From Nitrospinota bacterium (lineage in GTDB: Bacteria > Nitrospinota > Nitrospinia > UBA9942 > JAHJSF01), in NCBI GenBank assembly GCA_018830405.1, contig JAHJSF010000161.1, positions 1-8,193 of the forward strand: a stretch of DNA of 8,193 bases, written 5' to 3'. The translations under genes and the position numbers were made by a program. Positions 3,573-7,558 of this stretch are shown here, piece by piece. Numbering within the stretch: the stretch's first letter is position 1; each line of letters begins with the position of its first letter. The notes below the pieces were generated by a model. That model saw only the letters and a program-made list of their open reading frames with translations. It ran no database searches and was not told the origin of the DNA.

Positions 3573-3607
3573 TATCGCTCCGCTTTCAAGCTTCCCCCCC
3601 TTTTTTC

Positions 3608-3718
3608 GTCATTCCCCGATTTGATCCCCCAATCAAGTTGGGGGACGGAATCCAGTAATTATATCTTCATACAGATCTTTCCAATTTTCTGGATTCCCCA
3701 GTCAAGCTGGGGAATGAC
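3608..3718. repeat. Nested inverted repeat (MITE- or REP-like element)
   Basis: The outer ends are perfect inverse copies: GTCATTCCCC (3608-3617) and GGGGAATGAC (3709-3718). Inside, GGAATCCAG (3647-3655) matches the inverse CTGGATTCC (3689-3697). Each arm also holds its own hairpin with the same loop TCAAG: TCCCCCAA/TTGGGGGA (3625-3632/3638-3645) and ATTCCCCAG/CTGGGGAAT (3693-3701/3707-3715). The 111-base unit can fold as a large cruciform or as two small hairpins. It resembles the ATTCCC...GGGAAT class of dispersed bacterial repeats. It carries no protein gene and lies between the 3' ends of convergent genes, the usual harmless landing place. It may also help end both transcripts. Confidence 0.85.
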
Positions 3719-3756
3719 ATGTTTTGTTTCGGGGGAAGATCAAATGACATGTTTTG
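3713..3756. repeat. Direct repeat of the inverted-repeat edge
   Basis: The 14-mer AATGACATGTTTTG occurs at 3713-3726 and again at 3743-3756, offset by 30 bases. The first copy overlaps the right end of the nested inverted repeat. The second ends 12 bases before the stop codon of the Spy-like gene (read on the - strand). This may be a partial duplication left by insertion or slippage of the repeat. Confidence 0.7.
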
Positions 3757-4321: not shown

Positions 4322-4340
4322 TGATTTTCGCTTATATACT

Positions 4341-4372
4341 GTTTAGACCGTTGGTAGATTGAAAAGGTTCAA
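4341..4372 (-). promoter_or_regulatory. ECF sigma promoter for the Spy-like gene
   Basis: Read on the - strand, TTGAACC (4372-4366) is followed 17 bases later by GTCTAAAC (4348-4341). GAAC-type -35 and GTCTAA-type -10 elements are typical of ECF sigma promoters. The same boxes with exactly the same 17-base spacing precede the ECF sigma gene at 5367-5398. The -35 begins one base after the stop codon of the anti-sigma gene, so it is an internal operon promoter. Predicted start is near 4336, leaving a leader of about 85 bases. Confidence 0.8.
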
Positions 4373-4762
4373 CTACAATTCCATTATTTCATTTATTTCT
4401 GCTGTTAAATCATTATCCCAATAATCTTCGTAGCCTGTCTCCCACACATATTCCACAAAGTCGCCTGTTTCAGCCATTTCCAGGGAATTATCTTTGGTTG
4501 TCTTTCCGATGGGGAGAATAATGGCCGCAACCAGCAGGGCTGCGACCGCTATTGAGGCCGGAATGAAGATGTAAGGATTAAAGAACTGTTTTAGTTTATC
4601 GAACAGGCTTTCCTCCTCAAGGGGAGGAGACTCCTCAGCCGATATTGCCTTCATTATTCTATCCTCAAGGCCGTCTGAGGTCTTTGGGATGTCTGGGGCA
4701 TTCTTTTTGAGGAAAGATACCAATCCCTCATCTTGGTTGTCTAAATCATTATTGTTCATCAT
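4373..4762 (-). CDS. Membrane-bound anti-sigma factor of the ECF sigma
   Basis: A 129-residue single-pass protein. An acidic N-terminal cytoplasmic part (1-63) contains a short segment, SFLKKNAPDIPKTSDGLEDRIMKAI (16-40 region), with the P-x-x-P then LExRIM pattern seen in small anti-sigma factors. The transmembrane helix is about 64-86. The C-terminal periplasmic tail (87-129) is very acidic and aromatic: about 13 Asp/Glu to 2 Lys, with Trp107, Trp115 and several Tyr. The HxxxCxxC zinc motif of ZAS anti-sigmas is absent; there is no Cys at all. The start ATG (4762) overlaps the sigma stop by four bases (ATGA), with AAAGGAGGGG 8-10 bases upstream; a second ATG follows directly. Position, size and topology make anti-sigma the natural reading, though sequence similarity is modest. 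The tail could contact the basic Spy-like protein or metal ions. Confidence 0.78.
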   Translation of the reverse strand: MMNNNDLDNQDEGLVSFLKKNAPDIPKTSDGLEDRIMKAISAEESPPLEEESLFDKLKQFFNPYIFIPASIAVAALLVAAIILPIGKTTKDNSLEMAETGDFVEYVWETGYEDYWDNDLTAEINEIMEL

Positions 4763-5304
4763 AATTCTATCCCCTCCTTTCTAAAGTATTCTCTAAGGTT
4801 TTTTCTGGCGTGAAATAGCCTCGATTTTACGGTCCCTTCTGAAATCTTCAGAATCTCTCCGATCTCTCTTATCAATAACTCATCTAAGTCATGAAGGACC
4901 ACTACGGCCTTATGTTCCGGAGAGAGTGTCTTTAAGGCCTTTTCAACCATATCCTTCCCATGATAATCGGATTGAATGTCTGTATCAGATTTAACCGAAT
5001 CCTCATCCTCAAGGGGTATGTTTTTCTTATCCTTTTCTCCATCTGATCTTAGGGAATCAAAGGCAACATTCATGGTAAGGCGGTATATCCAGGTGGATAG
5101 ATAGGCCTCTTCACGAAGTTTTGCAAACCCCTTCCATATCTTTATGAATACCTCTTGAGTAAGATCATCAAGATGTGTGGTGCCGGCAACCCTGCTTAAG
5201 GTCCCCCTTATCTTTCTCTCGTTTCGCCGATAAAATTCTCTAAAATACTCCTGATTTGTATTCTTGCTTAGTTTAAGAAGCTCTATATCTGAAATCTTTT
5301 CCAC
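4759..5304 (-). CDS. ECF-family RNA polymerase sigma factor (RpoE-like)
   Basis: A 181-residue sigma70-family factor with only regions 2 and 4, as in the ECF group. Region 2 covers about 21-88, including DDLTQEVFIKIW (46-57, core-binding region 2.2) and STWIYRLTMNVAFDSLR (70-86, the -10 recognition part). An acidic linker (88-118) follows. Region 4 spans about 119-174, with LSPEHKAVVVLHDLDE leading into the helix-turn-helix IREIGEILKISEGTVKSRL that reads the -35. Start is GTG 5304. GGAG lies 13 bases upstream, longer than usual, but no other start fits between there and the in-frame stop at 5323-5325. It is translationally coupled to its anti-sigma by a four-base overlap. The promoter at 5367-5398 matches that of the Spy-like gene, implying autoregulation. 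Specific ECF group cannot be assigned by eye. Confidence 0.93.
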   Translation of the reverse strand: MEKISDIELLKLSKNTNQEYFREFYRRNERKIRGTLSRVAGTTHLDDLTQEVFIKIWKGFAKLREEAYLSTWIYRLTMNVAFDSLRSDGEKDKKNIPLEDEDSVKSDTDIQSDYHGKDMVEKALKTLSPEHKAVVVLHDLDELLIREIGEILKISEGTVKSRLFHARKNLREYFRKEGIEL

Positions 5305-5366
5305 AACTATTATTTTTCTCCGCTAAGATACGAGTGTTTGTGATCCTAAAAATTTCTTTCTATGTA

Positions 5367-5398
5367 GTTTAGACTAAAAAGGGGTGAAAAAGGTTCAA
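5367..5398 (-). promoter_or_regulatory. Autoregulatory ECF sigma promoter
   Basis: Read on the - strand, TTTGAACC (5399-5392) and GTCTAAAC (5374-5367) are separated by 17 bases between GAACC and GTCTAA. This copies the promoter of the Spy-like gene box for box; the bases after GAACC are also alike (TTTTTCA here, TTTTCAA there). Predicted start near 5361 gives a leader of about 57 bases. The spacer is otherwise unrelated between the two sites, which argues for selection on the boxes rather than recent duplication. Confidence 0.8.
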
Positions 5399-5432
5399 AG
5401 ATATTTTTTATCAGGAAACTACGTTAGAGGGA

Positions 5433-5512: not shown

Positions 5513-6808
5513 CTACCGCTTGGCCTTTGCCTTCGATTGACTCCATTTTGGTTTACTGCCGTGGGAACTTGTTCTGGAACGCTGCCCATCCCTATGCCCC
5601 AGGTTCGGCCTATTCTGCGGATTAGGCTTTTTAGGTATAAATGGCCGCCTATCTAAATTAGACTCGGGCAGGTCATGTGTTGGTTCAAAGCCATCGATAA
5701 ATTTCCTTGTTAATATCTGTTTGAGGAGACGTTCAATATCGGATAGCTGCTGAAACTCATCGGCACTGACCAGAGATATGGCCTGCCCGCTGGCCCCGGC
5801 CCGGCCTGTTCGCCCGATCCGGTGGACATAATCTTCCGGCACGTTTGGTAAGTCAAAATTGACTACTTGAGGGAGGAGATCGATGTCTAATCCTCTGGCC
5901 GCAATATCGGTGGCTATCAGAAATCTAACCGTCCCTTTTTTGAAATCGGCCAAGGCCTTGGTTCTGGCTCCCTGGCTCTTGTTCCCATGAATGGCCGCGG
6001 CATTAATACCACTCTGCTCCAAACTACGGGTCAACTTATTTGCCCCATGCTTGGTACGGGTAAAGACAAGGGCCTGTGACCAATTGTTCTCCTTAATCAG
6101 ATGGATAAGGAGGGGGGTCTTCTGTTTTTTGTCGGCCGGGCATATCCAATGCTCTACCAATTCTACGGCAGTATTACGCGGAGTTACTGAGATCTCAACA
6201 GGGTTATTAACCATCCCCTTGGCCAGGTTACGGATATCCTCCGAAAAAGTGGCCGAGAACATCAGGTTTTGACGGTTCTTCGGTAAAAGGGCCAGAATCT
6301 TGCGGATATCGTGGATAAATCCCATATCGAGCATTCGATCCGCCTCATCCAGAACCAACACCTCTACCTGCCTAAAATTAACCGCATTTTGTCTGTAGAG
6401 GTCAAGGAGACGCCCCGGTGTTGCAACCAGGATATCAACCCCTTTTCTCAGCTTCATCATCTGAGGGTTTATATTCACCCCGCCGAAAACGACGGTGGAA
6501 CGTAAACGCAAATGTTTTCCATAGGTGTCGACACTCTCTGCAATCTGGGCCGCCAATTCACGTGTAGGTGTTAATATCAGGGCACGCACCTGATTGGCCT
6601 GAACCGAACCCCTTTTAGATAGTTTATCTAAAATAGGTAAGGTGAAGGCGGCAGTCTTGCCGGTACCCGTTTGGGCCGCGGCCATAACATCCTTCCCCGC
6701 CATAACCGCAGGTATGGCCTGGAGTTGAATAGGGGTAGGGGTTGTGTAGCCCTCTTCGGCTACCGCTTTAAGGATAGGGTCTGATAACCCCAATGTTGTA
6801 AAACTCAT
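5513..6808 (-). CDS. rhlE: DEAD-box ATP-dependent RNA helicase, RhlE type
   Basis: A 431-residue helicase that unwinds short RNA duplexes, in bacteria used in ribosome assembly, RNA decay and cold adaptation. All motifs are present in order: Q motif with F3 and TPIQLQAIP (25-33), motif I AQTGTGKT (45-52), Ia PTRELA (81-86), Ib TPGR (130-133), II DEAD (154-157), III SAT (185-187), IV LVFTRT (247-252), [12 protein letters not shown] (299-309), [12 protein letters not shown] (329-338). A basic, Pro/Arg/Lys-rich tail from about 385 to 431 is typical of RhlE and probably binds RNA. ATG 6808 has a weak AGAAGAG ribosome site. It is on the same strand as the ECF operon, 208 bases upstream of it, but a hairpin and the ECF promoter separate them. 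The symbol rests on the N-terminal FTxLGLSxPIL block and the tail; CsdA, DbpA and SrmB look less likely. Confidence 0.92.
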
Positions 6809-7318
6809 AAAATTTTCTCTTCTTTCAATATATTAAAATTTGTTTGTTATATCTGTGACGTTACACCTCTTTCCCCACTATTCTATATATAGCTCGCAAA
6901 AGGGAATATGTATCCACTCTTAATGGATTGCCATGCGACAACTGCACAAGATTTGAATTGTTTTGACTAGGATGCTTCTATTCTAGTTGAGGGGAGGTCT
7001 TGAAACGCGGCATTTCTCGGTCAATAATCAATCAGTTGCCACATACTACGACTATTCTGGGGAATAAGCAATAGGAAAGTTGGATTTTAAAACCTGTCCC
7101 ATTTATGTTAGTTTTTTTACCTGCTTGGATACGGCAAATGGAAAGTAGGCATAAACTGTTACGGCTCTTCGCGTAAGAGTGTGGGTCATTTTATATCCCC
7201 TTAAGCATACAAGTCAGTATTTTCAGCCTCAGATACTCCTCGTCTCATGAAAGGAGTCGAAGAGGTAACTGGTTTTAACTTTTGTGATACTATCATAAAC
7301 AACCTTGGAGGATTTAAA
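6809..7318. other. Long divergent intergenic region, no recognised gene
   Basis: About 510 bases separate the divergent starts of rhlE (- strand) and the H1-like gene (+ strand). I find no tRNA, no known riboswitch and no convincing reading frame. Visible structure: TATATATA near 6884-6891, where an rhlE promoter could lie though no good -35 pairs with it; a hairpin CTCTT/AAGAG at 7165-7179; a stem ACTCCT/AGGAGT at 7235-7257; and TGATA-C-TATCA at 7285-7295, which contains the -10-like TATCAT (7291-7296). Such a long leader is consistent with cold-shock-type regulation of rhlE, with an unrecognised small RNA, or with a decayed insertion. None is proved. Confidence 0.5.
7235..7257 (+). other. 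Stem-loop upstream of the H1-like gene
   Basis: ACTCCT (7235-7240) pairs with AGGAGT (7252-7257) around an 11-base loop that holds an ATG (7247). The 3' arm contains an AGGAG that could act as a ribosome site hidden in the stem. The gene's real start at 7319 has its own site, so any control here would act on the leader. The stem is short and may be chance. Confidence 0.25.
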
Positions 7319-7558
7319 ATGGAGAGTGACGCTAAGAAAGCAGTCGTGAAGGCCACGGTTAAAAAAACAGTTAAGAAGGCAGCCAAGAAAGTAGTTAAGA
7401 AGGCTCCTGCCAAAAAGGCCCCTGCCAAAAAGACGGTTAAGAAGGCAGTCAAGAAGGCTCCTGCCAAAAAGGCAATTAAGAAGGTAGTCAAGAAAGCAGT
7501 TAAGAAGGCCCCTGCTAAAAAAGCAGTTAAGAAGACGACTGCCAAAAAGAAAAAATAG
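7319..7558 (+). CDS. Histone H1-like Lys/Ala/Pro-rich nucleoid protein
   Basis: A 79-residue protein of which 35 residues are lysine and nearly all the rest Ala, Val, Pro and Thr. After MESDA, pairs KK recur every 4 or 5 residues to the C-terminus, and KAPAK occurs four times (28-32, 33-37, 46-50, 63-67). This matches the C-terminal tail of eukaryotic histone H1 and bacterial H1-like proteins (Hc1/Hc2 of Chlamydia, AlgP/AlgR3 tails). Such tails bind DNA by charge and compact the nucleoid. There is no folded domain such as HU. The start ATG 7319 is chosen for GGAGG (7307-7311) seven bases upstream. An in-frame ATG at 7247 would add 24 residues unlike the rest and has no suitable site. Codons for Lys alternate AAG and AAA and the repeats vary, so this is a maintained gene, not recent slippage. 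It stands alone with a strong terminator. Confidence 0.85.
   Translation: MESDAKKAVVKATVKKTVKKAAKKVVKKAPAKKAPAKKTVKKAVKKAPAKKAIKKVVKKAVKKAPAKKAVKKTTAKKKK

Follow-up and report, generated by a model that had tools for sequence, protein, structure and literature searches.

A predicted autoregulated ECF sigma factor module of cyanobacterial type with its own effector promoter, probably exchanged between phyla

Introduction

In Escherichia coli the gene for the periplasmic chaperone Spy is controlled by Cpx and Bae and is unlinked to rpoE. Other proteins of related fold act on regulators, CnrX on the CnrY–CnrH pair and CpxP on CpxA, as sensors or feedback regulators. The locus described here, which lies in an 8,193-nt stretch of DNA from a Nitrospinota bacterium (hereafter the window), resembles two of the described envelope systems in part. 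With E. coli σE/RseA and Spy it appears to share an envelope-stress logic, GAAC/TCTAA promoter elements, positive autoregulation and the Spy chaperone fold, but it has no RseB/MucB-like gene. With CnrYXH of Cupriavidus metallidurans it has in common an ECF sigma factor, a short membrane anti-sigma factor of non-ZAS type and a Spy-fold periplasmic protein, all in one operon, and the parallel extends to cyanobacteria, where some of the promoter boxes analysed below precede efflux-adaptor genes. It departs from CnrYXH, however, in gene order and in its Spy-like family, which is closer to Spy than to CnrX and lacks a conserved metal site; the sigma factor matches CnrH only distantly (1.7e-16, weaker than its match to E. 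coli SigE) and the anti-sigma factor has no detectable similarity to CnrY.

The closest described relatives are cyanobacterial, namely the group 3/4 ECF factor SigH (Synechocystis Sll0856) and the NCBIfam family PRK12518 (NF009171). A 2009 review recorded no genes known to be under the control of cyanobacterial SigH-type sigma factors, and assigned an RpoE-type promoter to the mapped start of Synechocystis sigH (PsigH-73; PMC2758279). We found no later paper on SigH-type target genes among the open-access papers searched. Cyanobacterial PRK12518 loci have the same order of sigma, short anti-sigma and Spy-like genes as the window and the same TTGAACC-N17-GTCTAAAC box. Unlike them, the window belongs to another phylum, its sigma factor scores just under the family cut-off, a second promoter is predicted before its Spy-like gene, and its genome assembly holds no further sites.

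We argue here, with high confidence and from comparative sequence analysis, that the locus would form an ECF envelope-stress module under positive autoregulation, in which the effector has a promoter of its own. We further argue that the module is of PRK12518 (probably SigH) type and that it probably passed from one phylum to another with its promoter sequence preserved. ECF modules that regulate themselves are commonplace; what is new is the conserved regulon and the two-promoter layout.

Sigma factor and host

The product of the sigma gene (Table 1) matched Pfam Sigma70_r2 and r4/r4_2 and exceeded the cut-off of TIGR02937, and it has the architecture of an ECF factor, with regions 2 and 4 only. 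Its best NCBIfam model was NF009171 (PRK12518), at 190 bits against 93 bits for the next best. The curated cut-off of that model, 208 bits, was not reached, whereas four cyanobacterial relatives that we tested scored 254–294 bits; this shortfall, and an identity of only ~36–43% to cyanobacterial members, count against the explanation that we prefer. In a tree of 44 sigma factors the window protein and 24 cyanobacterial-type rows formed a clade, with support of 100/98, that excluded 19 outgroup sequences, its exact place among the 24 being unsettled (92/85). On sequence and tree, the window sigma factor falls in the PRK12518 clade of cyanobacterial ECF factors. That this clade represents the SigH type, as opposed to SigG, SigI or SigJ, is probable by elimination, because our Synechococcus elongatus control gave no match over the NF009171 cut-off, and strain PCC 7942 lacks the H type and has types G, I and J (PMC2758279 Table 1).

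Table 1. Positions of the genes and predicted promoters of the module in the window
Feature	Position	Strand	Details
ECF sigma factor, 181 aa	4759–5304	−	GTG start; PRK12518/NF009171 clade (Pfam, NCBIfam and tree)
Anti-sigma factor, 129 aa	4373–4762	−	overlaps the sigma gene; short cytoplasmic N-terminus, one predicted membrane helix, periplasmic tail of ~50 aa
Spy/CpxP-like (LTXXQ) periplasmic protein, 160 aa	3769–4251	−	PF07813; signal peptide read by eye
P1, predicted ECF promoter	5367–5398	−	TTGAACCTTTTTCACCCCTTTTTAGTCTAAAC; TTGAACC (−35), 17-nt spacer, GTCTAAAC (−10); exact dyad; precedes the sigma/anti-sigma/Spy-like genes, upstream of the sigma start at 5304
P2, predicted ECF promoter	4341–4372	−	TTGAACCTTTTCAATCTACCAACGGTCTAAAC; exact dyad; begins right after the anti-sigma TAG stop (4373), which it abuts, and ends ~90 nt upstream of the ATG (4251) of the Spy-like gene

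When genome contigs were searched at the protein level with the sigma factor, at least ten cyanobacterial loci came up, which were the sole close kin among the matches listed and account for the identities given above. When 387 genomes sampled around the window genome were scanned for the family, there were just two members, the window genome itself, alone among the 77 sampled from its phylum, and one further genome, after which scores fell from 260 to 163 bits, and a plasmid search with the window protein gave matches of only ~30%. We rejected cyanobacterial contamination for the contig as a whole, since the DXR encoded in the window is closer to its own phylum (54–61% identical) than to cyanobacteria (48–51%). 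A cyanobacterial-type module in a non-cyanobacterial host suggests transfer, and the module probably passed between phyla together with an unaltered promoter sequence.

Anti-sigma and Spy-like proteins

Directly downstream of the sigma gene lies a gene for a putative membrane anti-sigma factor, orthologous to the cyanobacterial genes at the same position. The window protein aligns with the product of the gene downstream of the cyanobacterial sigma orthologues, the motifs LVxFLxQxRPxxP..LExRI and LEAFLExxW being common to them. Its membrane helix is a hydrophobic segment that we read by eye; no Pfam domain and no zinc-binding (ZAS) motif was found in it, and its profile matched nothing in the PDB, CnrY included. 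From the position of the gene and by analogy with known ECF systems, the protein would inhibit the sigma factor.

The third gene encodes a member of the LTXXQ family, matching PF07813 at 1.3e-7 and 32.7 bits (gathering score 24.3). Searched against the PDB, the profile of the Spy-like family matched E. coli Spy (1.4e-9), ZraP (1.8e-4) and CpxP (2.3e-3), and left CnrX unmatched. The AF2 model has a helical core with pLDDT above 90. Foldseek comparison of the model with the PDB gave weak E-values throughout (above 0.01), with ZraP and CnrX in the lead and STV, CpxP and Spy lower. The two LTxxQ motifs account for most of the residues that are invariant in the family alignment, which contains no conserved His/Met/Glu metal site.

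These comparisons bear on whether the Spy-like protein mainly senses for the anti-sigma factor or regulates it by feedback, in which case the promoter in front of its gene would determine how much of a brake or sensor is made, and not how much of a chaperone effector. Such a role is suggested by the parts of the module, which are those of CnrYXH (an ECF sigma factor, a short non-ZAS membrane anti-sigma factor and an adjacent Spy-fold periplasmic protein), by the CnrX chains among the top, if weak, Foldseek matches, and by the linkage of Spy-like and anti-sigma genes, which is kept in cyanobacteria. By sequence, however, the family is nearest to E. coli Spy and not to CnrX, its alignment is without the metal ligands, the anti-sigma profile does not match CnrY, and in cyanobacteria lone Spy-like genes far from any anti-sigma gene (L104, L174) carry the same promoter, which fits the role of an effector. 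The lack of conserved metal ligands and of a CnrX or CnrY profile match speaks against a metal sensor of CnrX type, and we consider a principally sensory role in the broader sense unlikely, if by no means far-fetched. Our preferred reading is that the Spy-like protein would act as a periplasmic chaperone and thus as the effector of the module.

Promoter sites at the locus

The original prediction had placed two minus-strand sites at the coordinates of P1 and P2, one before the ECF sigma gene and the other directly behind the anti-sigma stop and ahead of the Spy-like gene, with TTGAACC and GTCTAAAC in common and the same 17-base gap between GAACC and GTCTAA. All of these details are exact in the sequence (Table 1). 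P1 and P2 agree at 15 bases in register, or at 19 if the TTTT after GAACC is counted, and the exact 15-base dyad is expected by chance ~2e-5 times in the window and 0.003 times in the 1.42-Mb assembly, which is 87% complete and in which the window is contig C148. A scan of the whole assembly for TTGAACCTTTTN13GTCTAAAC, allowing up to three mismatches in the 19 bases, found P1 and P2 only, both of them perfect, and the reversed control gave 0. The regulon of two sites that had been proposed therefore holds for the 87% of the genome that is assembled.

Relaxing the pattern to GAACCN{16,18}GTCTAA added a single site in the assembly, at 5658–5686 on the minus strand. We rejected this third candidate as a chance match because about two are expected at that looseness, the reversed control also giving two; it has N18 spacing, lies within the DEAD-box gene and is absent from the top matches of the matrix described below.

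The promoter had also been called duplicated. This is correct in the sense that it occurs twice, but recent duplication of the DNA was rejected, since the spacers of P1 and P2 are identical at only 6 of 17 bases and their flanks agree at chance level.

The box in cyanobacteria

Most of the ten cyanobacterial loci have the gene order sigma, short membrane protein, Spy-like protein, as read from the sequence. We ran a de novo dyad search on the 280-nt regions upstream of the ten sigma genes, which had been found by protein alone. The commonest dyads were GAAC-N18-GTCT and its one-base shift TGAA-N19-GTCT, each in nine of the ten regions, whereas the maximum in 60 shuffled sets was four; the shorter GAAC-N18-GTC stood upstream of the sigma gene at all ten loci. 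A matrix built from those ten cyanobacterial sites only was then scanned over both strands of the 8,193-base window, where it ranked 5365–5399 (−) first with 27.6 bits and 4339–4373 (−) second with 20.5 bits, ahead of the next match at 12.9 bits. The original prediction was to be given up if the boxes were lost in relatives that keep the operon; they are instead retained at every one of the ten loci, and a matrix made without the window picks out P1 and P2 as its two best sites. The original interpretation is well supported. It had taken the additional output from P2 to be possibly the stronger; in the matrix the sigma-proximal P1 has the better fit.

The pattern TTGAACCTN{14,16}GTCTAAA, which admits three spacings, was searched blind in cyanobacterial genomes. 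It gave nine matches and no control matches in the ten genomes, and 49 sites in 292 cyanobacterial genomes, where the reversed control gave 17. By our own count 43 of the 49 have the exact spacing of the window. Downstream of these 43 lie 23 sigma operons, 8 genes for group-2 sigma factors (in one case assigned by its identical spacer), 5 genes for HlyD/MFP efflux adaptors (with a MacB-like permease next in three cases and an RND-like pump in one), 2 lone Spy-like genes and 1 gene of DUF1800 type, the remaining 4 being without a clear target. Genes that do not belong to the sigma family were classed by reading their translations and not by profile searches. The second Spy copy in L023 has a site of its own. 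As read from these sequences, the target set fits an envelope-stress regulon. The analysis provides a conserved promoter code and a target list for a cyanobacterial sigma clade whose regulon lacked description, and the box and its targets (the sigma operon itself, Spy-like chaperones, MacAB- and RND-type efflux adaptors and group-2 sigma factors) can now be tested in culturable cyanobacteria.

At L115, L116, L123, L124, L126, L128 and L136 the GAACC-N17-GTCTAA box stands ~110–220 nt before a group-2 sigma gene encoding 327–328 aa. The arrangement suggests a putative sigma cascade in cyanobacteria, from the ECF factor to a group-2 sigma factor. In the related cyanobacterial genomes of L103 and L177 the box has conserved flanks and adjoins a gene for a CRP-like regulator on the other strand, with no downstream target evident.

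Two-promoter loci in the phylum of the window

The cyanobacterial operons that we inspected have a single promoter for all three genes and no internal site of P2 type. There being no orthologous P2 sites in cyanobacteria, the case for P2 function is built on the quality of its motif and on parallels in layout with other sigma types. In the phylum of the window, GAACYTTTN{13,15}GTCTAA gave 16 matches against ~25 in the reversed control and is thus not enriched overall; only its pairing at one locus is notable. In the window genome (G000) and in G004, G005 and G009 exactly two matches share a locus, where the first precedes the sigma gene and the second follows the anti-sigma gene. In G004 and G005 the second site comes immediately after the anti-sigma stop, in G009 at a distance of 28 nt, and in all three of these other genomes it precedes an envelope effector. 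In both G004 and G005 the sigma factor is RpoE-like, the anti-sigma factor is of ZAS type and the second site is followed by a Spy-like gene, which in G005 comes after a DoxX-like gene and before one for an HlyD/MacA-like adaptor. The G009 locus (L194, G009:C133) has an unrelated ECF factor and a 353-aa anti-sigma factor of ZAS type, and its second ECF-type site precedes a gene for a secreted VIT/VWA-domain protein. Since the sigma factors of G004, G005 and G009 are not close to that of the window, the layout recurs with different sigma types.

It is improbable that P2 is a chance or decaying box, with the Spy-like gene expressed by read-through from P1 only, as in cyanobacteria. The missing internal site in the cyanobacterial operons inspected, the lower matrix score of P2 and the lack of a terminator between the anti-sigma and Spy-like genes speak for such a reading, but P2 is a perfect 19-base match and one of only two in the genome, its exact dyad has the chance expectation of 0.003 given above, it is the second-best site of an independently built matrix, and its position behind the anti-sigma stop is paralleled in G004, G005 and, at 28 nt, in G009. 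We tentatively propose a broader idea, possible but doubtful at present: that in this phylum the placing of a separate effector promoter after the anti-sigma gene has arisen repeatedly, with no fewer than three unrelated pairs of ECF and anti-sigma factor (a PRK12518-type sigma factor with a non-ZAS anti-sigma factor; RpoE-like with a ZAS protein in G004 and G005; and the ZAS-type pair with a VIT/VWA protein in G009). Such a design would uncouple the dose of the effector from that of the anti-sigma factor, and in the window it would have been added to a module exchanged with cyanobacteria whose promoter code was kept.

Recognition of the promoters and proposed mechanism

That another sigma factor of the window genome reads P1 and P2 is very improbable. 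GAAC/GTCTAA-type boxes are common to several ECF groups, and the ECF factors of G004, G005 and G009 have similar sites, but a search of the window genome itself gave few candidates (a single match to the window sigma factor at E ≤ 1e-20), and across cyanobacteria the box accompanies the PRK12518 sigma gene, with few sites elsewhere. From the conservation of the box we infer that the neighbouring sigma factor recognizes P1 and P2 and hence regulates its own gene.

In the mechanism that we favour, the membrane anti-sigma factor would hold the sigma factor inactive, and an envelope signal would presumably free it. The freed sigma factor would read TTGAACC-N17-GTCTAAAC at both P1 and P2. Transcription from P1 would give a message for the sigma, anti-sigma and Spy-like proteins, combining positive feedback with renewed inhibitor and some Spy. 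No terminator-like site was found on the minus strand in the stretch from the anti-sigma gene to the Spy-like gene; read-through from P1 into the latter is therefore expected, and P2 would be an addition to it. Transcription from P2 would give Spy-like mRNA alone, and the predicted periplasmic chaperone would thereby be raised without more sigma or anti-sigma factor. The window would thus represent a minimal two-promoter form of the module outside cyanobacteria, and a simple case in which a sigma factor and its promoters move together and the effector output is separable from the feedback.

Neighbouring sequences

The gene for a DEAD-box helicase that adjoins the module (5513–6808, minus strand) is ~60–63% identical to genes of G007, of G011 and of two cyanobacteria (one of the Gloeobacterales and a Pseudanabaena), and only 41–42% identical to the nearest in its own order; its distribution is accordingly patchy too, and it may have moved together with the module. 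By eye we noted imperfect inverted repeats (CATTCCCC..GGGGAATCC), like those of a small repeat element, at 3600–3740 in the intergenic stretch that separates the Spy-like gene from that for DXR. On the plus strand, at 7247–7558, lies a Lys/Ala/Pro-rich, histone H1-like open reading frame with KKAPAKKA repeats, which has weak similarity to the HC2-type Pfam family.
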